Positions 27,700 through 41,975 of a DNA stretch of 64,000 nt are shown in pieces; the first letter of the stretch is position 1, and each line of letters starts with the position of its first letter. The notes beneath the pieces were generated by a model. The model had not been told where the DNA came from, did no database searches, and was given only the letters and a program-made list of their open reading frames with translations. The DNA is from Kineothrix alysoides (lineage in GTDB: Bacteria > Bacillota > Clostridia > Lachnospirales > Lachnospiraceae). Location: contig NZ_JPNB01000001.1 in the NCBI RefSeq assembly GCF_000732725.1, positions 186,001-250,000 on the forward strand, read 5' to 3'. Position numbers and translations under genes: made by a program.

Positions 27700-27931
27700 A
27701 GATAGAATCCCGTCCTTTATGCACAGAGTACAAAAGGAAGCAACTGGCAAAAAACAATAATAACGAGACGGGCAACCAGTTGATAAGTAATGTAAAAACA
27801 AAATATGCTTGTGTAACCGTTATTGGGATTCATTGTCAGACGCAAAATAAATGGTACAATAAACATCACAAATTAATTCTTCGTTTAGAGAATTAATAAA
27901 ATGTATACCAGTGTTAATATCCGCTATGAAT

Positions 27932-27940
27932 GGGGGGGGG
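27932..27940 (+). repeat. Nine-G homopolymer in ribosome binding region
   Basis: A run of nine G lies six bases before the ATG at 27946, at the place of the ribosome binding site. It is also inside the frame of an alternative upstream start at 27901. Confidence 0.9.
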
Positions 27941-27945
27941 TACTG

Positions 27946-28764
27946 ATGATACAAATAAGCAAAGATATAAAGATAAAAGATGTAGCAAATGTCGTAAATG
28001 AAAAATCCCCGAGCTTTTCTGGTATTGTGAACCAGGAATGTAAGGGTACGTTATGGGTTGACAATATTGAAGAACCAAGAGTTGCAATTGCCGAGTCCTA
28101 TGCAGTAGGAAGTTTTGCATTTCTTGGCACATATAAAACAAATGAAGACTTTTCAGATTTAAAAGATTTTTTGGAAAATGATTTATTTCATCACTTAAAG
28201 GAAAAGGGATATAAATGTTTTGAATTTTCTATTGAAAGTGAAAATATATACAAGAATATTTTAGAAATCTTTAAAAATAAATCAATCCAAACAGAAAAAG
28301 AATTCTCGTTCCGAGTCAATAAAATACCTGAAAAAAATCAGGATATTCCCAAAGGATATCAGCTAAGAAAAGTAGATGATATATTCTGGAATATGTTAAC
28401 AGAAAATGAATTTGAAAATGAAGATTTATTAAAAGTTCGGTTGTTGGAATCATGGTACTCATTTGAAGAATTTAAGAATAAAAGTATTGCATATTGCATT
28501 ATTTTAGATAGAAGAATCGTTGCTGTAATGGTTGGAACTGCATGTTTTAAAAATGTAATAGCAATAGATATTGAAACAGAAGAGAAGCATAGAAGAAAGG
28601 GGTTGGCTTATGCGATGGCGATAGAATTCATAAACGATTGCTTGAGAAATGGACTTATTCCACAATGGGATTGTGTTGAATCAAACCCCAATTCATACAA
28701 TATGGCCGGAAAATTAGGATTTGAGAAAATAAATGAAAATACAGTCTATTGGTTCAATATTTAA
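27946..28764 (+). CDS. GNAT acetyltransferase (PF12746-like)
   Basis: A 272-residue protein with an N-terminal domain of unknown type and a C-terminal GNAT domain: IAIDIETEEKHRRKGLAYAMAIEFINDCLRNGLIPQWDCVESNPNSYNMAGKLGFEK. This organisation matches the GNAT_acetyltran group and is related to the 352-residue protein at 40917. The acceptor is unknown. The start is taken at 27946, just after a run of nine G; an upstream ATG at 27901 in the same frame would add 15 residues with no family similarity. Its composition is AT-rich. Confidence 0.82.
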   Translation: MIQISKDIKIKDVANVVNEKSPSFSGIVNQECKGTLWVDNIEEPRVAIAESYAVGSFAFLGTYKTNEDFSDLKDFLENDLFHHLKEKGYKCFEFSIESENIYKNILEIFKNKSIQTEKEFSFRVNKIPEKNQDIPKGYQLRKVDDIFWNMLTENEFENEDLLKVRLLESWYSFEEFKNKSIAYCIILDRRIVAVMVGTACFKNVIAIDIETEEKHRRKGLAYAMAIEFINDCLRNGLIPQWDCVESNPNSYNMAGKLGFEKINENTVYWFNI

Positions 28765-28850
28765 TGGAAAAGATTTATGATAAGCAACTTCTGATTCATT
28801 TCCTATTAGGAAAAAAGGTTAATATTTTCTGCAAAAATACTGAATAATAC

Positions 28851-28901
28851 TTGACAAGACATGGATTATAAGATATATAATAAATAACAGTAATCATTAC
28901 T
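28851..28901 (+). promoter_or_regulatory. ahpC promoter with palindromic operator candidate
   Basis: TTGACA (28851-28856) and TATATA (28874-28879) are spaced by 17 bp. The palindrome AGTAATCATTACT (28889-28901) overlaps the expected start site and contains TAATNATTA, the core of the PerR/Fur-family box. A second, poorer match, TTATAAGATATATAA, overlaps the -10 region. PerR-type control of ahpC-ahpF is known in Firmicutes. Confidence 0.5.
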
Positions 28902-28950
28902 ATTATTGAGAAATATATCAAAATAATAATTAATTTAGGAGGTCAAAATT

Positions 28951-29514
28951 ATGTCATTAATTGGAAAAGAAGTACAGCAATTTAAAGCGCAGGCTTATCA
29001 GAATGGAAAGTTCATTGAAGTTACAGAGGAAAATTTTAAAGGGAAATGGAGCATTGTTTGCTTTTATCCGGCAGATTTCACATTTGTGTGCCCGACTGAA
29101 CTCGAAGATTTACAAAATAATTATGAGGAACTGAAGAATTTAGGGGCAGAAGTATATTCTGTTTCTACAGATACGCATTTTACGCATAAGGCATGGCATG
29201 ACAGTTCAGAAGCTATTAAGAAGATAACTTATATTATGATTGGAGACCCTTCTCATGCATTATCACGTAATTTTGATGTTTTAATAGAGGCGGATGGACT
29301 TGCAGACCGCGGAACCTTTATTATTGATCCGGACGGCATTATTCAATCGGTGGAAATTAATGCAGGAAGTATCGGGCGTGATGCGGGTATTCTTATTGAC
29401 AAGGTGAAAGCCGCTCAATATGTCAGAAAAAATCCGGGAGAAGTCTGCCCTGCAAAATGGAAAGAAGGCTCTGCTACGCTAAAACCAAGCCTGGATCTTG
29501 TAGGTAAAATTTAA
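28951..29514 (+). CDS. ahpC: Alkyl hydroperoxide reductase peroxiredoxin subunit
   Basis: A 187-residue two-cysteine peroxiredoxin. The peroxidatic Cys47 is in FTFVCPTE and the resolving Cys166 in GEVCPAKW, with the YF-like C-terminal stretch replaced by the common [11 protein letters not shown] ending. It reduces hydrogen peroxide and organic peroxides and is recycled by AhpF, encoded 11 bp downstream. It has an AGGAGG ribosome binding site seven bases before the ATG. In an anaerobe this pair is a main oxygen-defence system. Confidence 0.97.
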
Positions 29515-29525
29515 GGAGAGATATT

Positions 29526-31055
29526 ATGATACTAGATGCGGATATAAAAGAACAATTGGCAGAGTATCTTAAGCTTATGGAAAATGAGGTTCTGATTAAG
29601 GTAAGTCATGGAACGGACCAAGTTTCCAATGATATGGTGGATTTAGTAAATGAATTAGCTGCCATGTCATCCCAAATTAAGATAGAGCGTTCTGACTTGT
29701 CTAAAACGCCGAGCTTTAGTATCAATCGTGTTGGTGAAGAAACTGGAATAACCTTTGCGGGTATTCCTTTAGGTCATGAGTTCACATCTTTGGTGCTGGC
29801 ACTTTTGCAGGTGAGTGGAAGAACCCCTAAAGTGGATGAGAAGATAATTGAACAGATTAAAGGAATTGTGGGCGAATATCATTTTGAGTCTTATATTAGT
29901 TTAAGCTGCCATAACTGCCCAGAGGTAGTGCAGGCTCTTAATGTAATGAGCGTGCTTAATCCGGGTATTACTCATACAATGATTGATGGTGGAGTGTTTA
30001 AAGATGAGGTAGAAAGCAAGAATATTATGGCGGTGCCTTCTGTTTATTTAAACGGAGAACCTTTTAGCACCGGGAGAATGGCGATAGAAGAAATACTTGC
30101 CAAACTGGGCAGCACTGCTGACATATCTGAATTCTATGACAGAGAACCATATGAAGTGTTGGTGATAGGCGGTGGTCCGGCGGGATCCAGTGCAGCCATC
30201 TATGCGGCAAGAAAAGGGATTCGAACCGGAATTGTTGCAGAGAGATTTGGAGGTCAGGTAAGAGATACCTTAGGTATAGAGAACTTTATAAGCATAAAGC
30301 ATATTGAAGGCTCGAGGCTTTCTGATAATCTGGAAGCCCATGTAAAAGATTATAATGTAGATGTTATGATGCCGCAGCGTGCAAAAAGTTTAAAAAAGAA
30401 AGAATATGTAGAGGTTGAACTGGAAAACGGAGCAACTTTGAAAAGTAAAACAGTAATTCTTTCCACGGGTGCACGCTGGCGCAATGTCGGCGTACCGGGT
30501 GAAATTGAATATAAAAATAAGGGAGTTGCTTATTGCCCTCATTGTGACGGGCCTCTATTCAAAGGAAAGCGTGTTGTTGTCATTGGAGGCGGGAACTCCG
30601 GAATTGAAGCAGCCATTGATTTGGCAGGTATTGTAAATCATGTAACAGTTCTTGAGTTTATGCCGGAATTAAAAGCGGATGCGGTACTTCAAGAGCGCTT
30701 ATATTCACTGCCTAATGTAACCGTCTATAAAAATGTTCAAACGAAAGAAATTATAGGAACCGATAAGGTAAATGGAATCACTTATATAGACAGGGGCACA
30801 CAAGAAGAACATCACATTGAACTGCAGGGTGTGTTCGTTCAGATTGGATTGGTACCTAATACAGAGTGGCTGGGAGATAGTGTGGAGCGTAATCGTATTG
30901 GTGAAATCATAGTGGATAATCACAATGCTACTAGTATTCCGGGAGTATTTGCAGCGGGAGATTGTACCAACAGTCCATATAAACAGATAATTATATCTAT
31001 GGGCTCCGGTGCTAATGCGGCGTTAGGTGCATTTGATTATTTGATTCGGAACTAG
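29526..31055 (+). CDS. ahpF: Alkyl hydroperoxide reductase flavoprotein subunit
   Basis: The 509-residue protein has an N-terminal double thioredoxin-fold domain with CHNC (Cys128 and Cys131), an FAD-binding stretch VIGGGPAGSSAAIYAARKG, the redox-active CPHC (Cys337 and Cys340) and an NAD-binding VVVIGGGNSGIEAAID. This is the complete AhpF domain order. It transfers electrons from NADH through both disulfides to AhpC. The end has FAAGDCTNSPYKQIIISMGSGA, the second FAD contact. It is followed by a good terminator. Confidence 0.97.
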   Translation: MILDADIKEQLAEYLKLMENEVLIKVSHGTDQVSNDMVDLVNELAAMSSQIKIERSDLSKTPSFSINRVGEETGITFAGIPLGHEFTSLVLALLQVSGRTPKVDEKIIEQIKGIVGEYHFESYISLSCHNCPEVVQALNVMSVLNPGITHTMIDGGVFKDEVESKNIMAVPSVYLNGEPFSTGRMAIEEILAKLGSTADISEFYDREPYEVLVIGGGPAGSSAAIYAARKGIRTGIVAERFGGQVRDTLGIENFISIKHIEGSRLSDNLEAHVKDYNVDVMMPQRAKSLKKKEYVEVELENGATLKSKTVILSTGARWRNVGVPGEIEYKNKGVAYCPHCDGPLFKGKRVVVIGGGNSGIEAAIDLAGIVNHVTVLEFMPELKADAVLQERLYSLPNVTVYKNVQTKEIIGTDKVNGITYIDRGTQEEHHIELQGVFVQIGLVPNTEWLGDSVERNRIGEIIVDNHNATSIPGVFAAGDCTNSPYKQIIISMGSGANAALGAFDYLIRN

Positions 31056-31104
31056 GGAATATTCTTTAATTAAAAAATAAAAGATAAATAAGAAGTAACT
31101 TTAA

Positions 31105-31135
31105 AGATTAGGACACCAAAAGTCCTAATCTTTTT
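31105..31135 (+). terminator. Rho-independent terminator of ahpCF
   Basis: AGATTAGGAC (31105-31114) pairs with GTCCTAATCT (31122-31131), followed by a run of T. Confidence 0.92.
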
Positions 31136-31162
31136 ATATTACAATAAATTCTTTCATCAAGG

Positions 31163-31241
31163 TGACAAAAGTCATCCCCAAAAAAGTGACTTCTTTCACT
31201 TTAGACCGTTTACTTGATTTGTTAATATACATAAGTAGAAT
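31163..31241 (+). promoter_or_regulatory. Promoter with two small palindromes before ABC operon
   Basis: TGACAAAAGTCA (31163-31174) and AAAGTGA-N6-TCACTTT (31183-31202) are inverted repeats lying just upstream of a promoter TTGATT (31214-31219), 16 bp, TAGAAT (31236-31241). They are candidate sites for the NarL-type regulator encoded at the end of the cluster. Confidence 0.5.
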
Positions 31242-31295
31242 AGGTGGACAGGAAACAAGGCGGAAAGAAGCAAAGAAAGAGAGGAAGCTTTATAT

Positions 31296-32078
31296 ATGGA
31301 GGAAACAGTATTAAAACTACAGGGATTAACAAAAAAATATGACAACAAACCGGTGGTAGACCATATTTCTATGGAAATAAAGAAAGGCGAAATTTTCGGA
31401 CTTTTAGGACCTAACGGGGCCGGAAAAAGTACTACCATGAATATGATCTGTGCGCTGACCAAGCCTACGGCCGGTTCCGTCCGGATTTTTTCCAAAGAAA
31501 TGAATACGGTCTTAAATACGCGGCAGATCAGAAGGCGTATCGGTTATATACCTCAGGATATTGCTATTCATGGAAATTTGAAGGCGTGGGAAAATGTAGA
31601 ACTTTTCACATCGCTATACGGATTAAAAGGAAAAGAGTTAAAGGATGCGGTCGGTGAGGCTCTGGAATTCGTTGGCTTAAGCGAACACAGAAATGATTAT
31701 GCCAAGAATTTCTCGGGTGGAATGAAAAGGAGGCTTAATATTGCTTGTGCACTTGGACATAATCCGGAGCTCTTGTTTTTTGACGAGCCTACGGTAGGAA
31801 TTGACCCTCAGTCGAGAAATTTTATTTTAAAAAAGATAAAATACATTAACAGCCAAGGCGCAACCGTTATTTATACCAGCCACTACATGGAAGAAATTGA
31901 AGCAATCTGTACGAGGATCGCAATTATGGATAATGGAAAGATCATTGCGGTAGGCACGAAGGAAGAATTGGTTTCTCTTGTAACAGATGACTTATCGGCA
32001 AATATGTCTCTTGAGGAAGTGTTCCTTACGCTGACAGGGAAAAAACTAAGAGATTATGCGGAGGGGGATAAAGCGTGA
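31296..32078 (+). CDS. ABC transporter ATP-binding protein
   Basis: A 260-residue ATPase with Walker A GPNGAGKST, signature FSGGMKRRLNIACAL, Walker B LLFFDEPTVGIDP and YTSHYMEE. It resembles the NatA/DrrA-like drug exporters. It overlaps the first permease gene by 4 bp and forms a transporter with two ABC-2 permeases. A histidine kinase and response regulator follow, so the transporter is likely induced by a cell-envelope or peptide signal. Confidence 0.94.
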   Translation: MEETVLKLQGLTKKYDNKPVVDHISMEIKKGEIFGLLGPNGAGKSTTMNMICALTKPTAGSVRIFSKEMNTVLNTRQIRRRIGYIPQDIAIHGNLKAWENVELFTSLYGLKGKELKDAVGEALEFVGLSEHRNDYAKNFSGGMKRRLNIACALGHNPELLFFDEPTVGIDPQSRNFILKKIKYINSQGATVIYTSHYMEEIEAICTRIAIMDNGKIIAVGTKEELVSLVTDDLSANMSLEEVFLTLTGKKLRDYAEGDKA

Positions 32079-33211
32079 TGCCATGGGTTTTAATAAAAAA
32101 TAATTTAAAATTGATGCTGAAGAATAAGTGGATTTTGTTTTTTATGACGGCACTGCCTCTTATGGTTATGGCATTACTGGCATCGGTTTTTGAAGATATG
32201 CTGGGAAAAGATACGGCCATTGAAAAAATAGCTGTCGGATATGCCATTCATATCGAAAATGAGGAAGAAGAGCAAAGCTTTCGGGAAGCTTTTGAAACTT
32301 TCGTAGAGGGCTGTGAAGAAAATGATATTTACCTGCAAGAATATGAAGCGACGGAATACAAAGACCTGTTGGAAAAGAAAGCAACGGATATATTTCTTCT
32401 TGTTACGGATAAAGAAATGATAATTTACGGTTCAGAAGATAAGAAGATAGAAACAATGGTACTAAACAGTGCGTTGGCTTCGTTTGACAAGATGATTCAC
32501 AGCGTAAAGGTATTGAAAGAATATTTGACGGAGAATCCGGAAAAGGTACAAAATCTTAAGGAGACACAATTGCCGGATAAAGATTATATAAAGGCAGAAA
32601 GACTTGCTGTTAATCCGTTGCCTTCCGCTATGGACTATTACGGAATCATTGAAGTCGTTTATTTTGCATGGGCAGGTATGGTTTCTTTGTCGGTGGTCAT
32701 TTCCAATGAAAGAAAAAATAAAATAGAAAACAGACTCCAGATCGCACCGGTATCAAAACTTTCTTTATATTTGGGGAAAGTAGTGCCCTGTGTGTTGGCA
32801 ACAGCGGTAGAGCTTGGAATTACCATGGGATTATCCATAATGCTTTTTGGAGTGCATTGGGGGAAGATACCAGCTTCGCTCGGCATTCTTCTGCTTCTCT
32901 GCATAGCTTCCGGTACGGTAGGGGTGCTCTTGTTCTATCTCTTTAAAAGTGTGGTAGTAAGTATTGTGGCAGGCTATCTTGGCCTGATGACGATAGGATT
33001 TTTAGGAGGTACCTTTAATATGTATATGTATGCATATCCGGAACATGTGCAAAAGTTATCGGTACAATATTATGTTAATCGAACGCTTGTAGAGTACTCG
33101 ACAATGGGAGACAGTGCATATGCTTCAGGCTGTATCACTTTTCTGACGGTAATCATTTTGATAAGTACGACGCTTGGCATGTTTGTTATGAATAAGAGAA
33201 TGGAGGTTTAA
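32075..33211 (+). CDS. ABC-2 type permease, first subunit
   Basis: A 378-residue protein with one membrane segment near the N-terminus (about residues 19-37), an extracytoplasmic domain of about 150 residues, and five or six segments from about residue 190 to the end, the plan of YhgE/Pip-like or ABC-2 membrane type 3 permeases. It has the typical SVVISNERKNKIENRLQIAPVSKLSLYLGKVVP elbow. It forms a heterodimer with the next protein in the predicted exporter. Confidence 0.88.
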   Translation: MMPWVLIKNNLKLMLKNKWILFFMTALPLMVMALLASVFEDMLGKDTAIEKIAVGYAIHIENEEEEQSFREAFETFVEGCEENDIYLQEYEATEYKDLLEKKATDIFLLVTDKEMIIYGSEDKKIETMVLNSALASFDKMIHSVKVLKEYLTENPEKVQNLKETQLPDKDYIKAERLAVNPLPSAMDYYGIIEVVYFAWAGMVSLSVVISNERKNKIENRLQIAPVSKLSLYLGKVVPCVLATAVELGITMGLSIMLFGVHWGKIPASLGILLLLCIASGTVGVLLFYLFKSVVVSIVAGYLGLMTIGFLGGTFNMYMYAYPEHVQKLSVQYYVNRTLVEYSTMGDSAYASGCITFLTVIILISTTLGMFVMNKRMEV

Positions 33212-33214
33212 GAA

Positions 33215-34477
33215 ATGAGGGGATTTCATACGATGTTAAGAATAAATTTCAGGCTTTTATTCAGAAATGCAGGATACCTTTGCTTTCTTATCATACTTCC
33301 TATGACGGCGGTGGCGCTTTTGAATCTGAATGCGGCGACGACCACTGTATACGGAGACGATGCGCAGAAAATAGTTTATTTGAAAAATGAAGACGACAGG
33401 ATAGAGGACATGACGAGCCTTAGACTGAATATAAAGGTATATGATCTTTCTGGTTCCAAATTGTCGTCGGACTTTCTTAATTCTTTACAAGGTATAGGAT
33501 GCTATCAATTATATTGTTATAATTCTGAAGAAAGCAAAATGCCGGAAATAAAAGAAAAAGCAATAAAAGTGATGAACGAAAATACCATAGGGGCAGTTCT
33601 GGTAATTCCTTCGGATTTTGACCGCCTGATTTTAGATGGAGATTATGAGGACAGCGTATTTCTTTATTACGGCAATGAAGATGCGAGAGTGGATACATTG
33701 CAGAATTATATCAATCAATTTTTCCGCACCGCCAGTACTTTTTCGACAACAGCAGACGATGACAAAGAAGCTTTTGAAGAACTTTTGGCTCAGGCAAATA
33801 AAGAAGGGTTTCAGATAAGAACGGAAAGTGTAGGAAGCGGTACCAGCGTGGAATTAACCTCGGAACAATTAGGCTATATGTCCACGGTAAAATATAGTTG
33901 GGCGCTTGTCACTATGGCTTTTACGTTCAGTGGAGTTTTTGTCAGCAATATCGTTATTATGGAGCGGAATAACGGTGTATTCAAAAGAACAAAATTAAGC
34001 GGAATCGGTATGGCAAGCTATGGTCTGGTAAAATTTTTTTTAGCAATGGGAACAGTAATCATACAGATATTTGTAATGGGGGCAGGAATAAAACTTTTTG
34101 TCAAGACAGACTTTGGCATTAATATGGGACAGTATTTGCTGCTCACCTTTGGGTTGGCGCTTATTTTAAATACATTAAGTGTAGTAATCGGCATACTCGT
34201 TAATAATTTGCTGAATACCAGTTATATAGCATTTTTCTTGGCTACGTTTACTTTTACGCTTTCCGGGTTGTTTTTTACTGCTATGCCGGCGGATGGATGG
34301 CTTGCCAATGCGGCGCTCCTTACACCGCAGCGCTGGGGGATTAAAGCGGTGGAAACGCTGCTAACGGAAGGCAGTAATGCATTCGGCTCCTATGCTCTTG
34401 CCGTCATTGGTTTTCTTGCACTTATTTTATGCGGGGGATTTTTAGGGCTCAATCTAATTCAGAAAGAGGAACTATGA
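33215..34477 (+). CDS. ABC-2 type permease, second subunit
   Basis: A 420-residue protein with the same plan as its upstream neighbour: one N-terminal segment, a long extracytoplasmic domain (about 45-220), and six C-terminal segments with the elbow IVIMERNNGVFKRTKLSGIGMASYGLVKFFLA. It starts 3 bp after the preceding stop codon. Two related permease genes in a row suggest a heterodimeric exporter. Confidence 0.88.
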   Translation: MRGFHTMLRINFRLLFRNAGYLCFLIILPMTAVALLNLNAATTTVYGDDAQKIVYLKNEDDRIEDMTSLRLNIKVYDLSGSKLSSDFLNSLQGIGCYQLYCYNSEESKMPEIKEKAIKVMNENTIGAVLVIPSDFDRLILDGDYEDSVFLYYGNEDARVDTLQNYINQFFRTASTFSTTADDDKEAFEELLAQANKEGFQIRTESVGSGTSVELTSEQLGYMSTVKYSWALVTMAFTFSGVFVSNIVIMERNNGVFKRTKLSGIGMASYGLVKFFLAMGTVIIQIFVMGAGIKLFVKTDFGINMGQYLLLTFGLALILNTLSVVIGILVNNLLNTSYIAFFLATFTFTLSGLFFTAMPADGWLANAALLTPQRWGIKAVETLLTEGSNAFGSYALAVIGFLALILCGGFLGLNLIQKEEL

Positions 34478-34478
34478 T

Positions 34479-34506
34479 TTGACAGCCTGCAATTCTCATA
34501 TATAAT
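34479..34506 (+). promoter_or_regulatory. Promoter of the two-component genes
   Basis: TTGACA (34479-34484) and TATAAT (34501-34506) are separated by 16 bp, both perfect hexamers. They overlap the end of the transporter operon, so the kinase and regulator may have constitutive expression of their own. Confidence 0.75.
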
Positions 34507-34570
34507 AAAATTAATTATATACAATAGTATAAAGTGGTGTTTTACAAATGACTAGAAATGATGGTGGGAT

Positions 34571-35710
34571 ATGGGAGACAGGATTCTGCTAAATTATTTT
34601 CCAATACTTAAATTTATATGTATGCTGGCGATTTCAGCGTATACTATTGTAAACGGACAGACCGATGACAGCCATCTAAGCAGTCAGGTCTGTCTAATTG
34701 CGCTTATTTTGCTCTCGGCTACAGCCTATGAATCCTTTATCAGATATAAGTGGCTGTGGCTTTTAGCGGAAGGGCTTCTGCTTTCGGTTACTTATCTCTA
34801 TTTTAATCCTGAGTGTTTTTACCTTGCACCTTTTTTGGTATTGGATGCGGTGGTTTATTTAAACTTGAAATGGCCTCTTTTACTGTTTCCGATGATAGGA
34901 TGCTTTTTCTCATATCATAATAGGCCTTTTTATTTTTTCTGCAGCCTGTTCGGTGCGGTCATTTATTTGCAGCATTATATTTTCCTTAAACAATATAGAG
35001 AGCGCATGGAATATTATGAGAAGGAAGAATATGAGCTGAAGGATACGATAGACAATCATGAAATAAAGCTGAAGGAAGAGCTTAGGGCAAACGGGCTTTA
35101 TTATGAGAAGCTGATGCTGGAAGATAAAACACGGCTTGCACAAGTGCTGCATGATGAACTGGGACATAGCATTAACGGAAGCATTTATCAGCTGGAGGCA
35201 TGCAAGGTGCTGCTTGATAAGGAAAAAGAAAAGTGTAATTCCATTATACAGAACGTGATAGATAGTCTTAGGATCAGCATGGAGGAAATCAGAATGATCC
35301 TAAGAAAGGAAAAGCCCAATAAAAAGCAGATGGCGATGGTGCAGCTTCACGCATTGAGCGAAGAATGCAAGGAAAGATACGGAATCGATATGGAGCTTTC
35401 CATACAGGGGGATGCGGGAAAGATATCGGATAAGCTATGGGAGATTATATTGGATAATACCTTTGAAGCGGTTACGAATGCCTTAAAGTATGCAAAATGC
35501 AGCCATATTAAGATTGAAATATGCGTGATGAATAAATTGGTAAGATGCAGTATATGCGATGACGGAAAAGGTTGCGACAAATTTGAAACGGGTATGGGAA
35601 TGGAAGGTATGAAAAGGCGGACCAGAAGTGTCAACGGTACCATTGACTTTGAGATGACAAATGGGTTTACAGTAAAAATGCTGTTGCCTGCCGAAGAGCA
35701 GCAGGCATAA
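34571..35710 (+). CDS. Sensor histidine kinase, NarL-type (HisKA_3)
   Basis: The 379-residue kinase has about five membrane segments in residues 8-140, a coiled coil (about 145-180), a HisKA_3 dimerisation domain with phospho-accepting His194 in LAQVLHDELGHSING, and a HATPase domain with NTFEAVTNALKYA and GMGMEGMKRRTRSVNG. It lacks a large sensor domain, like the intramembrane-sensing LiaS/DesK type. Its partner regulator follows by 18 bp. The signal is unknown; the transporter upstream suggests an envelope-active compound. Confidence 0.93.
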   Translation: MGDRILLNYFPILKFICMLAISAYTIVNGQTDDSHLSSQVCLIALILLSATAYESFIRYKWLWLLAEGLLLSVTYLYFNPECFYLAPFLVLDAVVYLNLKWPLLLFPMIGCFFSYHNRPFYFFCSLFGAVIYLQHYIFLKQYRERMEYYEKEEYELKDTIDNHEIKLKEELRANGLYYEKLMLEDKTRLAQVLHDELGHSINGSIYQLEACKVLLDKEKEKCNSIIQNVIDSLRISMEEIRMILRKEKPNKKQMAMVQLHALSEECKERYGIDMELSIQGDAGKISDKLWEIILDNTFEAVTNALKYAKCSHIKIEICVMNKLVRCSICDDGKGCDKFETGMGMEGMKRRTRSVNGTIDFEMTNGFTVKMLLPAEEQQA

Positions 35711-35728
35711 AATGACGTGAGGTATGGT

Positions 35729-36361
35729 ATGGAGAAGATACGGGTAATCATTGCGGACGATTCTGATTTTGTCCGTGACGGCATGAATATTATTTTAGGC
35801 GTAGATGAGGAGTTTGAGGTGGCAGGATGTGCCGCCAACGGCAAAGAAGCGGTGGCCTTGGCAAGAAAAAGCAGGGCGGACGTCATTTTAATGGATATTC
35901 AGATGCCTGAAATGGATGGAATAGAGGCAACGGGTATCATTGTTAAGGAGAATCTGGGAAAGGTATTGATTTTGACGACCTTTGATGACGATGATCTGGT
36001 AGTCCGTGCCATTCAAAACGGTGCCAAGGGATATTTGATCAAAAACCATACGCCGGATAAATTAAAGCAGATGATAAAGTCGATAAACGCAGGCGTTAAT
36101 GTGTTGGAAGAGACTGTGTTTGAGAAAATAGCGGAGAATAAAGAAATCCGTGGAGGACAAGGCTTTGAGGAGAAATTGTTTACGGAAAGAGAGCTGGAAG
36201 TAATAAAAGCCATAGCCGAAGGGCTGTCCAATAAGGAAATTGCGTCAAAGCTTTTTATCAGCGAAGGGACCGTCAAAAATTACATAACCACTATTCTGGA
36301 AAAAGGGAACCTGAAGCATAGGACACAGGTTGCCATATATTATCTGACAGGAAAAAAGTAA
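35729..36361 (+). CDS. NarL/LuxR-type response regulator
   Basis: A 210-residue regulator with a receiver domain (acidic pair in IIADDSD, phosphoacceptor D56 in ILMDIQMPEMDG, switch residues in LTTFDDDD and KGYLIKN) and a C-terminal LuxR helix-turn-helix (LTERELEVIKAIAEGLSNKEIASKLFISEGTVKNYITTILEK). The ATG at 35729 follows GAGG by six bases; a GTG at 35717 is too early. It forms a pair with the kinase and probably acts on the promoter near 31163-31241. Confidence 0.95.
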   Translation: MEKIRVIIADDSDFVRDGMNIILGVDEEFEVAGCAANGKEAVALARKSRADVILMDIQMPEMDGIEATGIIVKENLGKVLILTTFDDDDLVVRAIQNGAKGYLIKNHTPDKLKQMIKSINAGVNVLEETVFEKIAENKEIRGGQGFEEKLFTERELEVIKAIAEGLSNKEIASKLFISEGTVKNYITTILEKGNLKHRTQVAIYYLTGKK

Positions 36362-36391
36362 TATTTGAAACTTAAAAATAGAGATATATAC

Positions 36392-36420
36392 TTGGTTTCA
36401 TATATTATTTGATTTATGAT
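36392..36420 (+). promoter_or_regulatory. Promoter of leader block, copy 1
   Basis: TTGGTT (36392-36397), 17 bp, TATGAT (36415-36420). The same positions in the second copy have the better hexamers TTGATT and TATAAT. Confidence 0.6.
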
Positions 36421-36472
36421 AATAAGTACGTATTAAAAACTTCAATTTACTTACGAAAGGGGTAAATTAATT

Positions 36473-36505
36473 ATGAAAAAAGCAGATATGGTAATGAATC
36501 AATAA
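36473..36505 (+). CDS. 10-residue leader peptide MKKADMVMNQ
   Basis: A ten-codon frame with an excellent ribosome binding site (GAAAGGGG, 11 bases before the ATG), ending in TAA. The same peptide with one difference (A4 to I) is encoded in the second copy at 39707, where one further change (GTA to GTG) is silent. Nothing in the next 100 bp resembles a downstream gene on this strand, because a divergent metallo-hydrolase follows, so this copy looks orphaned. The function is inferred from layout only. Confidence 0.5.
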   Translation: MKKADMVMNQ

Positions 36506-36611
36506 TGTTCTATAGTTGCTTTATTCGATTATTGTATAAAAATACTACCATTCCACTTGTCCATATACTTTCGTAAAGGTGGTGGGTCGCGGAATACATA
36601 AGAGATTAGTA

Positions 36612-37337
36612 TTATTGGTCAATAACTAAGTCTGAAGATTTATAGTGGCCATAATGTGATGTTAATGTAAATTCAGTACCCTTAATAAGTTTACTGATTT
36701 TTTGAATTGATTCTCGACTAAGCGCTTCGTCCATAGTAAAAGGATGAATATCCAATTTGTTGTTACTTATCTTACAGCTGTCTCCCAAAAATATATAATC
36801 ATTATCTAATATATATATCATCGAGCCGGTTGTATGTCCCGGAGCTTTAACGCATCTTATTGTATGTTCACCGATTTTTATTTTTTGTTCATCCTTAAGC
36901 AAAATCAAGTCATCCAATCCTATGCCATCCGGCAATGAATTATTTTTGTTTCTTTCACGTTTTGTCTCGCCATTTACCATTTGTAATTCATCTTCTCCCA
37001 TATATATGTTTGCGTCAGTAAACAAGCCCAAAGACGCTACATGGTCATGGTCAGAGTGAGTTAAAAATATATGTCTCACATCTGAAATATTTTCCTGCTG
37101 AATTATTTTCTCTACCGCCTTTATATCAGAACCGGCATCTATTAAGATATATCCGTCACTTGAATTGATAAAATACATGTTGCCGATTTTATTTTTGACA
37201 GCCAATATTTCTGAATCTTGAATCTTCCCTGTTTTTGAAGGTTTCATAAATAATACCGGATATTCATTAAACGGAATTATTGTTGCAGCCAGTAGGGCTA
37301 ACGCAATAACAATTATCAAAATTATCATATTTTTCAA
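36612..37337 (-). CDS. MBL-fold metallo-hydrolase
   Basis: A 241-residue protein with an N-terminal membrane segment (residues 2-20) and a metallo-beta-lactamase fold. The zinc site is visible: FLTHSDHDHVAS (HxHxDH), then CVKAPGHTTGS and FLGDSCKI with the second histidine and the bridging aspartate, and a late histidine in LTSHYGH. Such proteins hydrolyse thioesters, lactones or phosphoesters; no specificity can be read. It is AT-rich and is divergent from a TetR gene, with three similar palindromic sites between them. Confidence 0.9.
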   Translation of the reverse strand: MKNMIILIIVIALALLAATIIPFNEYPVLFMKPSKTGKIQDSEILAVKNKIGNMYFINSSDGYILIDAGSDIKAVEKIIQQENISDVRHIFLTHSDHDHVASLGLFTDANIYMGEDELQMVNGETKRERNKNNSLPDGIGLDDLILLKDEQKIKIGEHTIRCVKAPGHTTGSMIYILDNDYIFLGDSCKISNNKLDIHPFTMDEALSRESIQKISKLIKGTEFTLTSHYGHYKSSDLVIDQ

Positions 37338-37390
37338 TATTCTTCCTCCATACGATATTTTTTATTAGTATAGAACACTTTCAAAACTTA

Positions 37391-37494
37391 AAGTGTCACA
37401 CTTGCGGCACTTATTTGTAAGCAGTATAATAGATGTTAACAGGAGCGTCAATACCTTAGGCGCAAGTGCTACACTAATCAAAAAGTGTGACACT
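37391..37494. promoter_or_regulatory. Three AGTG-CACT palindromes between divergent genes
   Basis: AAGTGTCACACTT (37391-37403), AGTGCTACACT (37465-37475) and AGTGTGACACT (37484-37494) share AGTG-N3-CACT half-sites. They flank the region between the metallo-hydrolase and the TetR gene, as expected for operators that regulate both. Confidence 0.6.
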
Positions 37495-37544
37495 ACAATC
37501 TTATTAAGCTATTTCTTATTAAGCTATTTGTAGGAGGACTTTAT

Positions 37545-38111
37545 ATGAAAGAAACAAAAAATCCTATTGCGTTACAGTCAAAGAATTGGATTATAACATC
37601 ACTGCTTGAACTTATGAAGAAATATAAGTACTCTGAAATAACTATAAAGGACATTACGAAGAAAGCTGATTTAGACCGACGTACATTTTATCGTCATTTT
37701 CAGTCTAAAGATGATGTGATTTGCGCATGTATTAAAACGATATGTGATGAATATATTGGCACACTACAAAGTGAAAAAAGTCCATCTGCATATACTACTG
37801 CAAAAATATATTTTACAATATGTCTGAAACATTTAGATTTTCTTATACTCATGAACAAGCATGGATTATCTGGATTTTTGTTTACAAAGTATAACGAATA
37901 TATGCCTAGATTACAGGATAATGATGTCTCACCTGAGTTAAAATTAAATTACGGTGATCATATAACATATCTATATGCTTTTAATAATGGCGGGTTTTGG
38001 GCCCTAACATTAAAGTGGTTAGAAAATGGGGCAATTCAAAGTCCGGATGAAATGGCGGAAGTTATTTGTAAAATACTCCACGGCATGTTGAATTGTAACT
38101 TGACTGCGTAA
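37545..38111 (+). CDS. TetR-family transcriptional regulator
   Basis: A 188-residue protein with the N-terminal pattern NPIALQSKNWIITSLLELMKKYKYSEITIKDITKKADLDRRTFYRHFQSKDDVI, a TetR helix-turn-helix of the DhaS-like type, and a C-terminal TetR_C-like segment. An AGGAGG site lies before the ATG. It likely controls the divergent metallo-hydrolase through the sites at 37391-37494. The ligand is not known. Confidence 0.9.
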   Translation: MKETKNPIALQSKNWIITSLLELMKKYKYSEITIKDITKKADLDRRTFYRHFQSKDDVICACIKTICDEYIGTLQSEKSPSAYTTAKIYFTICLKHLDFLILMNKHGLSGFLFTKYNEYMPRLQDNDVSPELKLNYGDHITYLYAFNNGGFWALTLKWLENGAIQSPDEMAEVICKILHGMLNCNLTA

Positions 38112-38352
38112 CGTTAGCTCAATTGTAAAAATTCTGGCATACTGTTTTTTTTAGGGCTTTTCCATTAAACTGCTTGTTGGGGAGTGCCTTCCCCCAACAC
38201 TACGACTTCGGACTAACTTGGAATTGGATGGAAGAATTTATGCACTTGCAGGTTGCTAAAATGCACTTATAAGTTGGTAGATGTTAATTGATGGACTTAT
38301 TATAATAATGTTTGACAATTACAGTATTATAATATTCCTATGGAGGTATATA

Positions 38353-38907
38353 ATGAAAAAAATTATTTTAACATCAGCCGGCTTTGAAAACAAAAAAATC
38401 GAGCAAAAATTTCTTGATATGGTTAATAAGCCATCCAATAAAATAAGGGCAATATGGATACCGACCGCAGCTACTTATGATGCTGCAAAAGCTGTACTGC
38501 CAAAGTGCATGGACGATTTACTGAATGCGGGTATATCAGCTGAAAACATAAAGACCTATAATCTTGACTACGTAATGGAATATGAAGAATTGGCTGCTTT
38601 TGATACCGTTTATGTCTGTGGCGGCAATAGTAGATATCTTCTTGACAAAATGTATGAAGCAAATTTTGTAAGCCTGCTGGAGCGGTTCATCGATCAGGGG
38701 GGAATATATATTGGTGTAAGTGCCGGAAGTTGCATATGCGTGAACGGATTCGAAGATAACCTTGGATTTTTACCATGCACATTAAGTGTGCACTGCATAG
38801 AAGGCAATATATCCGGGGACATAGACATTAACCATACTTCACACATAAATCTAACAAATAGTCAAGCAATTATCATTGAAGAGGAAGAGCGCTATATTCT
38901 TGAATGA
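38353..38907 (+). CDS. Peptidase S51-family protein (dipeptidase E-like)
   Basis: A 184-residue protein of the peptidase E family. The nucleophile serine is in GVSAGSCI, and the family patterns IWIPTAATYD, VYVCGGNSRYLLDKM and GGIYIGVSAGS are clear. Dipeptidase E cleaves Asp-X dipeptides; relatives act in peptide or cyanophycin breakdown. The ATG at 38353 follows GGAGGT by six bases; earlier in-frame starts have no ribosome binding site. It is AT-rich and slightly shorter than the usual 200-230 residues, with a short C-terminus. Confidence 0.85.
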   Translation: MKKIILTSAGFENKKIEQKFLDMVNKPSNKIRAIWIPTAATYDAAKAVLPKCMDDLLNAGISAENIKTYNLDYVMEYEELAAFDTVYVCGGNSRYLLDKMYEANFVSLLERFIDQGGIYIGVSAGSCICVNGFEDNLGFLPCTLSVHCIEGNISGDIDINHTSHINLTNSQAIIIEEEERYILE

Positions 38908-38982
38908 TGGTATTTAATTTAAAAGCAAAATCGCTTTCAACTATTGATTTTGAGTCTGTCAAAGCGCAAATGGGGTATAAAA

Positions 38983-39600
38983 ATGAAACTATCTGAAAAA
39001 ATACAAATGTTAAGAAAGAAAAATGGGCATTCACAAGAATATATGGCAGAAATTTGTAATGTCAGCAGACAATGTATATCGAAATGGGAGGCGGATATAG
39101 CATTACCAAATGTTGATAAGCTTTTGATACTGAGTAAATTTTTTCGGGTTTCTATCGACGTTTTACTGAAAGATGATTTGACCATTGACGGCGCACAAGA
39201 GATTCACACATGTGGAAACAATGCTCTTCTTAATGAAAAAACAGGCTTATATGAAGGCGTCCTTATTAAGGAAAGTATAGAAAATGATTTGGTACTTGAT
39301 TACCTTACGATCAACAAAGTAGAAATATGGAAGACTCAAGGAAATCCAAAATACTGGACGGCTATATATTTTACTTCGACAAACAGAGATTTTCCGAATT
39401 TGATATCAAAAGTAATGATTTCAGATGAGACAAAAGGCGGAAATTGGTTTGTTGATTTTAAGACGGGAAATATTAAATTTATTGTCTTCCGTAATAAGAT
39501 TTTAAAATACACTATCGGGAATAGTATAGAAAAACAAGATGTTTGCGAAGAATGCAAGAAGATGGGTATTCCCTATGAGCAAATGCAATGGGCAGAATAA
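38983..39600 (+). CDS. XRE-family regulator with C-terminal domain
   Basis: A 205-residue protein with an N-terminal Cro/C1 helix-turn-helix (MKLSEKIQMLRKKNGHSQEYMAEICNVSRQCISKWEADIALPNVDKLLILSKFFRVSIDVLL) and a C-terminal part of about 130 residues with beta character (YWTAIYFTST, NWFVDFKTGNIKFIVFRNKILKYTIG) that I do not recognise. A pair of cysteines near the end (CEECKKMG) may bind metal. The ATG at 38983 has a GGGGT site. A copy of the leader block follows by 10 bp. Confidence 0.82.
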   Translation: MKLSEKIQMLRKKNGHSQEYMAEICNVSRQCISKWEADIALPNVDKLLILSKFFRVSIDVLLKDDLTIDGAQEIHTCGNNALLNEKTGLYEGVLIKESIENDLVLDYLTINKVEIWKTQGNPKYWTAIYFTSTNRDFPNLISKVMISDETKGGNWFVDFKTGNIKFIVFRNKILKYTIGNSIEKQDVCEECKKMGIPYEQMQWAE

Positions 39601-39623
39601 AAGGTGAAAATAGAGATATATAC

Positions 39624-39652
39624 TTGATTTCATATATTATTTAATTTATAAT
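39624..39652 (+). promoter_or_regulatory. Promoter of leader block, copy 2
   Basis: TTGATT (39624-39629), 17 bp, TATAAT (39647-39652). It would transcribe the leader peptide and then rsgA. Confidence 0.8.
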
Positions 39653-39706
39653 AATTAAGTTAGTATTAAAAACTTCAATTTACTTTCGAAAGGGGTTGAT
39701 TAAATT

Positions 39707-39739
39707 ATGAAAAAAATAGATATGGTGATGAATCAATAA
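39707..39739 (+). CDS. 10-residue leader peptide MKKIDMVMNQ
   Basis: A ten-codon frame behind GAAAGGGG. It is followed by a hairpin GCAGAAAGC-TTTT-GCTTTTTGC (39756-39777) and then a terminator (39814-39837) before the ribosome binding site of rsgA. Short peptide, hairpin, terminator and gene is the arrangement of ribosome-sensing attenuation known upstream of ribosome-protection and rRNA-methylase resistance genes. That this applies here is inference. Confidence 0.55.
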   Translation: MKKIDMVMNQ

Positions 39740-39755
39740 TTTAATATTGAAGTAT

Positions 39756-39837
39756 GCAGAAAGCTTTTGCTTTTTGCGTATAAGGAACCCTTTTGTAAAC
39801 ACTGTATAAACAGACTTGCCAATGGGCAAGTTTTTTT
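39756..39837 (+). promoter_or_regulatory. Attenuator-like double hairpin with terminator
   Basis: The first hairpin is GCAGAAAGC with GCTTTTTGC (39756-39777). The second is ACTTGCC with GGCAAGT (39814-39831) and a T-run to 39837, a rho-independent terminator placed before the gene. A gene-proximal terminator only makes sense if it can be bypassed, so this is a likely regulated attenuator. Confidence 0.65.
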
Positions 39838-39861
39838 GTACCCAAAATTGGAGGAAAATCA

Positions 39862-40858
39862 TTGAAAATGAAAGAAAATGGAACACAAATGCATGCTATT
39901 GTTTGTGAAGTTCAACGGGAATTATTCACGTTAATATGTGAACAGGGAGAGATTCACGCAAAATTACTGGGAACATTCTATAAAGAAAATAGCATGTTCC
40001 CAGTTATAGGGGATATGGTATTAATTTACTTTAATCAAAACGGAGATTCTATTATTGAAAAAGTCTATGAAAGAAAAAGCAAGTTTTCAAGAACAGATTT
40101 TTCAGGGCATGCGGCAAGTTATGTAAAAACAATAAAAGAGAAGGTGCTTGCGGCAAATTTTGACTATGTTTTTATAGTAGATTCACTCAATAAGAATTTT
40201 AATTTAAATCGTATTACAAGATTTGTAAGTGTAACATTGAAAAGTGGAGCAAAACCGGTAGTAATTTTAACAAAAGCGGATTTATGCAATAATGTGGATT
40301 ATTATACAAAAAAGGTAAAAAGCATATCAGAAAAACTTGATATTTGCGTAATTAGCGCAATATCAGGAATCGGTATGAATCAGCTTGATTTTTATTTAAA
40401 GGGTGGCAATACAATTGTATTTCTTGGTTCATCAGGAGTCGGGAAGTCTACTCTTTTGAATGCAATTGCAGGTGAAGAACTGATGAAAGTCAGCAAGATA
40501 CGTGAAAACGATTCAAAGGGACGCCATACCACCACCCACAGGCAATTGATAATGCTTCCATCAGGAGTCGCGATTGATTGACACACCGGGAATTAGAGAA
40601 TTAGGCTTGTGGGATGCAAGAGAAGGAATTGATGATACATTTTCAGATATAACGGAACTTTTTGACAATTGTAAATATAGTAATTGCACACATACAACGG
40701 AACCTGGCTGTGCAGTAAAAAAAGCAATTGAAAATATGACAATTTCCAGTGAACGCTGGAAATTGTATTGTCAATTAAGAAATGAAAATGAATGGGGTAA
40801 AAACAAAGCTGTTAATATATGCAAACAAAAATTAAGAAATAAAATCAGCAGAACATAA
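39862..40858 (+). pseudogene. rsgA: Frameshifted ribosome-associated GTPase RsgA
   Basis: Two adjoining frames together give a complete RsgA, a GTPase that acts in maturation of the 30S ribosomal subunit. The first (239 residues) has an OB fold, the permuted G4 ILTKADL and G1 GSSGVGKSTLL, and GRHTTTHRQLIMLPSG; the second begins IDTPGIRELG (G3) and carries the zinc-finger cysteines CKYSNCTHTTEPGC. The break is at 40573-40581, where ATTGATTGAC occurs. Removing one base restores GVAIIDTPG, in register with the family; removing a four-base ATTG copy also restores the frame. The start is the TTG at 39862, seven bases after GGAGG. It may be a true mutation or a sequence error. Confidence 0.85.
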
Positions 40859-40916: not shown

Positions 40917-41975
40917 ATGTTCAAATTAAATAATAATGATTTTAGTAAAATATTACCTTTAGTCAAATCTAAAAATGAAGTATCCGTACTTTCTGTTATA
41001 AAGGGTGCCATGCCAGGTGAAATATATGTAAATAGCATAGATGATCCGACAGTTGCATTGATAAAGACTTGTGAATGTAACTTAATTGCGGGTAATTCTA
41101 GTGATGTCAATTTTAATTCTGAAGTGTCTGTGGTAATAGATTTTTGGGACCAGTTGACACCTGATTCGAGTGAGTGGATAGATTTAATACCAACGATTCA
41201 TAAAAATCCTTTCATTAGAAGATATAAAAGGAGGCACTATATATTATCTATTGATGATTTTAAGGAATGTGATCAACCTTTGGAAGATGGCTTTATAATT
41301 AAGAAAATTGACGTTGATTTCTTAAGGAAAACTTCTTACGAAAACTCAGAGAAACTGCTTGAATGGATTGCCGATTGGGGAGATGATGCAAGATTTGAAA
41401 AATATGGGGCAGGGTATTTTATACATAATGGAAATGTTATTGTAAGCTGGTCATTAAGTGATTGCAGCTTTGACAAAGAGATAACAATCGGAATTCATAC
41501 AGATGAAAGATATAGAAAAAATGGATTCGGAAAAGCAGTTGTTTCTGCAGTCGTTAAGGATTGTTTTAATAAAGGTTACGAAAAAATAAATTGGCTTTGT
41601 GCAGATACTAATAAAGGGTCCATCGCTTTAGCTGAAAAATTAGGATTTAAATATAACAATAATTATTATGCTTTTTCGACATATCCTCCAATTGAGAATA
41701 TACAAGATTTATCTGAAGCTGAATGGTTTGAATGGGGCGAATATTTGGAGAATGCCTCTAAAACAGAGGGCTGTTTGATATGGGATTCTCTGTATTGTTA
41801 TATAAAATCGAATAACATTGAAAAAACTATTAGTATTATGACTACTATGGAACATAGTAAAATTAATGCGGATTATTCAAGGTTTAAAGATTATATTACT
41901 TATCTGCAAGGCTATGGTTTGTGTTCTAATTTCAGAAGCCAAGCTTGGCTGGATTTTCTAAAAAGAAATACTTAA
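40917..41975 (+). CDS. GNAT acetyltransferase, 352 residues
   Basis: The N-terminal 130 residues are a domain of unknown type, followed by a GNAT fold (TIGIHTDERYRKNGFGKAVVSAVVKDCFNKGYEKINWLCADTNKGSIALAEKLGFKYNN, about residues 195-250) and a C-terminal extension of about 80 residues that ends in a helical segment with DYITYLQGYG. It is a relative of the protein encoded at 27946. It has an AGGAGG site and AT-rich codons. The acceptor is unknown; the extension could be a separate interaction domain. Confidence 0.82.
   Translation: MFKLNNNDFSKILPLVKSKNEVSVLSVIKGAMPGEIYVNSIDDPTVALIKTCECNLIAGNSSDVNFNSEVSVVIDFWDQLTPDSSEWIDLIPTIHKNPFIRRYKRRHYILSIDDFKECDQPLEDGFIIKKIDVDFLRKTSYENSEKLLEWIADWGDDARFEKYGAGYFIHNGNVIVSWSLSDCSFDKEITIGIHTDERYRKNGFGKAVVSAVVKDCFNKGYEKINWLCADTNKGSIALAEKLGFKYNNNYYAFSTYPPIENIQDLSEAEWFEWGEYLENASKTEGCLIWDSLYCYIKSNNIEKTISIMTTMEHSKINADYSRFKDYITYLQGYGLCSNFRSQAWLDFLKRNT

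Follow-up and report, generated by a model that had tools for sequence, protein, structure and literature searches.

The 64,000-nt stretch of the Kineothrix alysoides genome analysed here (the window; contig NZ_JPNB01000001.1, positions 186,001 to 250,000) contains two near-identical blocks, copy 1 and copy 2, each made of a promoter-like element, a Shine-Dalgarno sequence (SD) and a ten-codon open reading frame (ORF), and copy 2 stands in front of a gene for an RsgA-like GTPase on the same (forward) strand. Copy 2 (39612-39739) comprises the promoter-like hexamers TTGATT (39624-39629) and TATAAT (39647-39652), the leader SD CGAAAGGGG (39687-39695) and the leader ORF MKKIDMVMNQ (39707-39739), in which an SD-like GGTG occupies positions -13 to -10 from the stop (39724-39727). 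It is followed by a hairpin, P2 (39752-39781), beginning 15 nt past the first base of the stop codon, by a segment complementary to the leader SD (CCCTTTTG, 39788-39795), by an intrinsic terminator (ACTTGCC-AATG-GGCAAGTTTTTTTG, 39814-39838; small variants in loci L004, L005 and L037) and by the SD of the GTPase gene (GGAGG, 39850-39854). The region 39672-39838 folds with a z of -4.33, and its minimum-energy structure contains the helix between the SD and its complement. The gene itself is read in two parts, the first (39862-40581) with an RsgA_GTPase domain (PF03193, 141.3 bits; cut-off 30) and intact relatives at loci L004 and L292, and the second (40574-40858) matching the C-terminal part of RsgA models. 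A short ORF with its own SD 5' of the gene (translation predicted) and an intrinsic terminator between the two are the features of transcription attenuators that depend on an upstream ORF (uORF). We consider it probable that copy 2 forms the leader of a switch of this general kind, keeping an RsgA paralogue off until translation is disturbed.

The two blocks lie 3.23 kb apart and proved as similar as the initial annotation had described, with 115 identical columns among 126 ungapped ones (91%) plus three gap columns; the similarity begins right behind the upstream genes and stops at the ORF stop codon. Both have the SD GAAAGGGG and a 17-bp spacing between promoter-like hexamers, which in copy 1 (36379-36505) are TTGGTT (36392-36397) and TATGAT (36415-36420). 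A pattern for the leader ORF, allowing up to three mismatches, matched twice in the window against none in 100 shuffled sequences; in the entire genome there are exactly two matches. The ORFs differ by two codons, GCA/ATA (Ala/Ile) and GTA/GTG, the latter silent as annotated. The GTA in the ORF of copy 1 (36473-36505, MKKADMVMNQ) breaks the GGTG element. Copy 1 also lacks cargo, as had been noted: the next gene, of the MBL fold (36612-37337), is on the opposite strand, no SD-complement or terminator was seen, and in the fold of 36441-36640 no hairpin precedes a T run. Copy 1 looks like a relic of which only promoter and ORF are left; as a second active switch it was rejected, being without the elements 3' of the stop. 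The initial annotation did not mention the features 3' of copy 2 (hairpin, SD-complement, terminator and RsgA-like gene).

Three clear RsgA-type genes were found in the genome, namely the housekeeping one (C1:840118-841017), a second paralogue on contig C2 and that of the window; a fourth match, with internal stops, was barely above the cut-off (30.2 bits). The PF03193 domain was also above the cut-off in P0001 (170.9 bits). The C2 paralogue is intact (L286, G000:C2:117800-119900) and is preceded by a leader ORF, MAKLIVNEVVAD with a stop, and by two terminators as judged by eye, and no SD-complement motif was found in its leader. In a FastTree phylogeny of 119 rows, all from Bacillota, 27 housekeeping RsgA proteins were separated from 92 paralogues with a support of 100, and the window-type paralogue fell outside the Bacillota housekeeping clade; the paralogue clade may be of outside origin. 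Within the tree, RsgA paralogues of Paenibacillus, Bacillus and Lysinibacillus nest with those of Oscillospiraceae, which suggests horizontal transfer. For a Bacillus relative (L228), the AlphaFold model (pLDDT 79) matched RsgA bound to the 30S subunit (7boi_W, E 1e-24; also 5no2).

A recognisable leader ORF was present at 26 of 58 paralogue loci chosen by their protein (15/29 from the class and 11/29 from the phylum) and at none of 30 housekeeping rsgA loci (Fisher p 3e-6, the loci not being fully independent); the window's own locus and one other of the 60 paralogue loci had been dropped as unorientable, and the gene of genome G207 is in both sets. With a relaxed rule, 19 leaders were found in 63 loci and none on the antisense control.

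Leader, terminator and intact RsgA-like gene occur together in three genomes of the same family, with the leader peptides MRKVKMVMNQ (G144), MKKLEMVICN (G179) and MKKLDRVIYQ (G166). When the G144 protein was used as a query (E<=1e-50), 76 of 391 genomes of the class had matches, and many of the 30 loci fetched have in common a CGAAAGGGG-like SD, an ORF of about ten codons, a hairpin, the motif AACCTTTCGTGAATACTG and terminators. This 18-mer was found in 73 stretches of genome_contigs, 70 of them from Bacillota as read from their titles, with about 7 estimated by chance. The cargo was called as the first recognised gene within 2.5 kb downstream (E<1e-10, sorted by gene order), and was an RsgA paralogue in 47 of the 73, two of these (L202 and L205) with RsgA remnants only, and an APH-like kinase in 11 (L182, L208, L212, L214-L216, L220, L224, L229-L231). 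A kinase gene lies behind RsgA in nine of the 47, that is, at the two remnant loci and in seven leader-RsgA-kinase operons of Paenibacillus, Bacillus and Lysinibacillus (L181, L222, L228, L233, L239, L243, L244); the loci with the kinase first may therefore be ones from which RsgA was lost. The kinases, of about 340 aa, are possibly uncharacterised drug-modifying enzymes; for the one scanned (L182), none of the curated NCBIfam families scored above its cut-off. Among the 15 stretches with neither gene, in five the sequence stops no more than 350 bases from the motif (L176, L179, L198, L227, L245), three are from outside Bacillota, have no leader and are probably chance matches (L179, L223, L235), four have no assigned cargo (L177, L200, L238, L241), and the others include another APH-type kinase (L190) and a methyltransferase (L211) by Pfam, and GNAT plus APH (L180) and a nitroreductase (L175) as read by eye. 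Copy 2 is a divergent member of this widespread leader family.

For a conservation profile, 81 leaders (65 motif matches, 15 other loci and copy 2) were reduced to 56 at 85% identity, eight of the 73 motif matches having yielded no leader; conservation of the motif in this set is built in by the motif scan. Two further alignments contained poorly cut rows and underlie none of the counts. A terminator-like hairpin with a T run was present in 55 of the 56. Positions -13 to -10 from the stop were G, G, T and G in 56, 56, 54 and 54 leaders, respectively, with a leader finder that gave a bonus to GTG at codon -4; in a recount on the same loci with an ORF choice blind to GGTG, the element was present in 47 of 51 leaders, and 44 of 51 ORFs had 10-11 codons. 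At codon -5 the residue is any of seven (E, M, L, K, T, G, R), and yet the third base is G in all 56 leaders; outside Met this holds for 39 of 39 codons, whereas in other parts of the ORFs codons for these residues end in G in 23 of 116 cases (Val excluded). Codon -4 is Val in 54 of 56 leaders, encoded by GTG in 53 of the 54; among the other Val codons of these ORFs, 5 of 63 are GTG. Because codon -5 always ends in G and Val -4 is nearly always GTG, the base sequence GGUG is under selection: what these sequences point to is selection on bases before the stop, exerted via codon choice, and not on the peptide. GGUG, and likewise GGUGAU, is complementary to the end of the 16S rRNA (to CACC in the former case), which we take to be GGATCACCTCCTTTCT, a sequence that occurs five times in the genome; by our count GGUG is about 8 nt distant from the P site of a ribosome that has the stop codon in its A site. 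A further conserved block extends from about +3 to +15, and the start of P2 falls at +13 to +15 in 41 of the 56 leaders, although folds were started at +10, so that a smaller value was hardly possible.

The pairings around the stop were tested over the family. The arms of P2 covary, each arm pairing better with its own partner than with those of other leaders in 19 of 23 cases (p 2.5e-4; swap tests were done on the 23 leaders whose terminators scored best), and were more complementary than shuffled sequences (z -2.44, n=55), as were the SD and its downstream complement (z -2.35, p 1e-10, n=55). The ORF showed no complementarity to the SD-complement (z -0.23) and a weak one to the 3' arm of P2 (z -0.56, p 0.005).

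The layout that recurs before RsgA paralogues across Bacillota (promoter-like element, SD, ORF of about ten codons, GGUG, hairpin, SD-complement and terminator) suggests the following scheme. During normal translation the leader SD would pair with its complement and transcripts would stop at the terminator; an inhibitor would alter the placement of ribosomes on the leader, the pairing would fail and polymerases would read through, so that the RsgA paralogue, at some loci with the kinase behind it, would be made. The paralogue would then act on the 30S subunit, which it might protect or rescue. Disturbed translation is proposed as the inducing signal because uORF leaders recur with RsgA paralogues and not with housekeeping RsgA, and because kinases are found in the operons.

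Several results weigh against this scheme. The GTPase gene of the window is frameshifted near 40574-40581, being intact in G144 and in G1065, a genome of the same genus; the break could be that of a pseudogene or a sequencing error. No recognisable leader was found at 32 of the 58 paralogue loci, and a stricter leader rule recovered 11 of 25 loci from the class and none of 26 from the phylum. In the swap test the SD and its complement paired no better with their own than with exchanged partners (p 0.55), as expected because both sides are nearly invariant. An unbiased search found no leader partner of the terminator that beat shuffled sequences, and thus no antiterminator. One candidate, the 3' arm of P2 with the 5' arm of the terminator (TGTGCC/GGCACA), was convincing by eye and was rejected, with a z of -0.06 against shuffles and a borderline swap test (14/23, p 0.056). 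Finally, in equilibrium folding the terminator probability was 0.86 without a ribosome, 0.84 with a ribosome at the start codon and 0.86 with one at the stop, falling by more than 0.2 in 3 of 55 leaders with the ribosome at the start and in none with it at the stop. Such equilibrium tests leave a kinetic route possible, and termination could be relieved through kinetics or RNA polymerase pausing, as discussed for the vmlR leader (PMC9226507).

The frameshift also bears on whether there is still a switch in this genome. That both copies are functionless, decayed remnants, with the working switch confined to relatives, is a serious alternative, though in our judgement not the favoured one: the broken gene and a copy 1 devoid of attenuator and GGTG would fit it, whereas copy 2 retains its leader elements and has the same ORF as G1065, and the break in the frame could be an error of sequencing.

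How the leader would sense translation is a separate matter, on which a second leader architecture has some bearing. Ten RsgA-paralogue loci from the phylum have an ORF, a CCTCCC-type segment and then the SD of the gene, suggestive of control at the level of translation. The peptides of seven of them (L265, L266, L268, L273, L275, L276, L280) end in GEVxxx or WEVxxx, GGGAGGT[GA] occupying the corresponding position ahead of the stop; in the remaining three (L257, L264, L284) no EV ending was detected. In footprint folding the predicted mean probability of a free gene SD was 0.53 without a ribosome, 0.58 with a ribosome at the start and 0.06 with one at the stop (n=10), the last dropping by more than 0.2 in seven loci and rising in none, an effect partly built in, as the ten loci were chosen for SD complementarity. 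In these models the gene should be off once ribosomes finish the leader and on otherwise.

The same logic may be extended to leaders such as copy 2, where a ribosome would be parked on the leader stop through contact between GGUG and the anti-SD, finishing meaning off and not finishing meaning on. In class A leaders the conserved positions -13 to -7 and +3 to +15 approximate the position of a stop-bound ribosome, if the footprint size that we assume is right; P2 begins just past such a ribosome, and GGUGAU could pair with the 16S tail. Against this, besides the pre-selection of the ten translational loci, the class A terminators did not respond to occupancy of the stop in the folds, and we regard such a completion sensor as a tentative proposal.

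The initial annotation had instead favoured a peptide that is translated and whose sequence matters; in such a reading the ten residues would stall the ribosome in the presence of a drug, as in ermC-type leaders. The first part of the annotation was supported, as an SD and a frame of 10-11 codons are kept over dozens of divergent loci, from which translation of a regulatory leader is inferred. Arrest by the nascent peptide is a common device of inducible resistance genes and would agree with the short ORF, the strong SD and the nearly constant Val -4, a codon at which the finder favoured GTG. However, the other residues from -8 to -1 are variable (entropy 2.1-3.5 bits), and the G-ending codon -5 and the choice of GTG at -4 show that it is bases that are selected. 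Likewise, the window-type peptides differ from MKKIDMVMNQ to MKKLDRVIYQ while GGTG is kept over the 56 leaders, and the silent difference between the copies, once taken as a sign of peptide selection, is the very change that disrupts GGTG in copy 1. The peptide does recur in another genome, G1065, but the ORF DNA is identical there, so that selection on peptide and on bases are not separated by it. Peptide arrest is thus improbable. A sensor of amino-acid shortage like the trp-type attenuators would share the uORF and terminator, but with Val -4 as the one residue that is conserved across the family and none repeated, and with RsgA paralogues and APH-like kinases in place of biosynthetic cargo, it hardly merits consideration.

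Returning to the disturbed-translation switch, a broader hypothesis may be put forward with considerable reserve: Bacillota might have an inducible, RsgA-derived 30S 'ribosome-protection' GTPase distinct from TetM, HflXr and ABC-F, with leaders that sense the completion of translation or recycling (a ribosome parked on the uORF stop by an internal SD-anti-SD contact) and not the peptide, some operons adding an APH-like kinase and loss of the GTPase leaving the leader to drive the kinase alone. That related switches precede this enzyme across many Firmicutes suggests that it is produced upon ribosome disturbance. The leader family would offer a sequence handle for finding such genes and the inhibitors that induce them, and the fixed spacing from GGUG to the stop makes an anti-SD contact at the stop codon directly testable as a sensor.

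Ribosome-associated GTPases have repeatedly become inducible resistance factors, as in TetM and HflXr. TetM is EF-G-like and not an RsgA. The tet(M) leader of the Tn916-type element on pCF10 resembles copy 2 in having a short ORF and a terminator before the gene of a ribosome-protection GTPase, with a similar TTTTTTGTACCC behind its first terminator, and differs in its peptide and hairpins; homology was not found, as no match among 72,556 plasmids spanned the leader and a comparison by eye with pCF10 (L038) revealed none. On pCF10 (L038 25970-26360), an earlier short ORF, MRQGILK, and a terminator-like hairpin precede the annotated tet(M) leader peptide.

The HflXr leader of Listeria (rli80-lmo0762) is a uORF transcription attenuator induced by disturbed translation, and like copy 2 it precedes the gene of a homologue of a ribosome-associated GTPase; it differs in its 14-aa peptide with an RLR motif, its HflX cargo and its experimentally shown resistance (PMC6310831), and neither the motif in the leader family nor HflX as the window gene was found here. 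The vmlR leader of Bacillus subtilis, also induced by disturbed translation, has a very short uORF (MIN, with other tripeptides in other species) that sits in an anti-antiterminator, before an intrinsic terminator; unlike in copy 2, this uORF has three codons, an antiterminator is predicted (none was found here) and the gene is of the ABC-F type (PMC9226507). In Escherichia coli, toiL-topAI shares with copy 2 a uORF, there reading several classes of translation inhibitors and with toiL induced by disturbed translation, and differs by its translational and Rho-dependent control and its toxin-antitoxin cargo (PMC12121999). As regards the enzyme, the RsgA paralogue SCO6149 of Streptomyces coelicolor is listed among translation genes activated by WblC in work on tetracycline; it resembles the window gene in being such a paralogue and differs in its WblC control, with no leader described in the excerpt (PMC7157823). 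RsgA participates in the folding of the 30S decoding centre (PMC9032327), and a resistance factor based on it, if real, would act at the decoding side of the 30S subunit. Among the matches listed for the open-access full-text literature, none described a leader or attenuator of an RsgA gene or an inducible resistance factor based on RsgA.

Rfam gave no match at gathering score in 36300-40000 of the window (best E 0.083, below the cut-off) or at the leaders in sets of 14 and 15 loci. A degenerate peptide pattern had no match in genome_contigs, a collection that may omit near relatives, nor had a long terminator pattern in viral_contigs; a looser terminator pattern matched 104 stretches, which were set aside. 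Plasmids and phages yielded at most short weak pieces, none spanning the leader. A DNA search at E up to 1 had matches in 275 of 299 genomes, mostly noise, and the top matches alone were used.

With regard to the neighbourhood, a regulator of the helix-turn-helix (XRE) type (38983-39600) lies directly 5' of copy 2, and a GNAT acetyltransferase gene (40917-41975; PF12746, 119.7 bits) 3' of the GTPase gene. At the collinear place in G1065, an S51-like peptidase, the XRE regulator, the leader and an intact GTPase gene follow one another, and the leader match is the only one in that genome. Absent from this place are positions 27716-38236 of the window, a 10.5-kb stretch that has the 9-bp repeat TTTATGCAC at both junctions and holds AhpC/AhpF-like genes (by eye), ABC and two-component genes, copy 1, and MBL and TetR genes; copy 1 was therefore gained here within this stretch or lost in G1065. 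The initial suggestion of a segment inserted between the copies agrees with this in part, the absent stretch being larger and including copy 1 itself. Genome G1070 is without 31287-36283.

Two further observations concern related loci. Matches of Rfam to an FMN riboswitch and to BsrG RNA were found distant from the leaders (L222 1422-1575; L228 182-438). At locus L036 (genome G345), a leader MKKMMAINI with a similar terminator is followed by a short ORF, and the 3 kb read there contain no RsgA gene.

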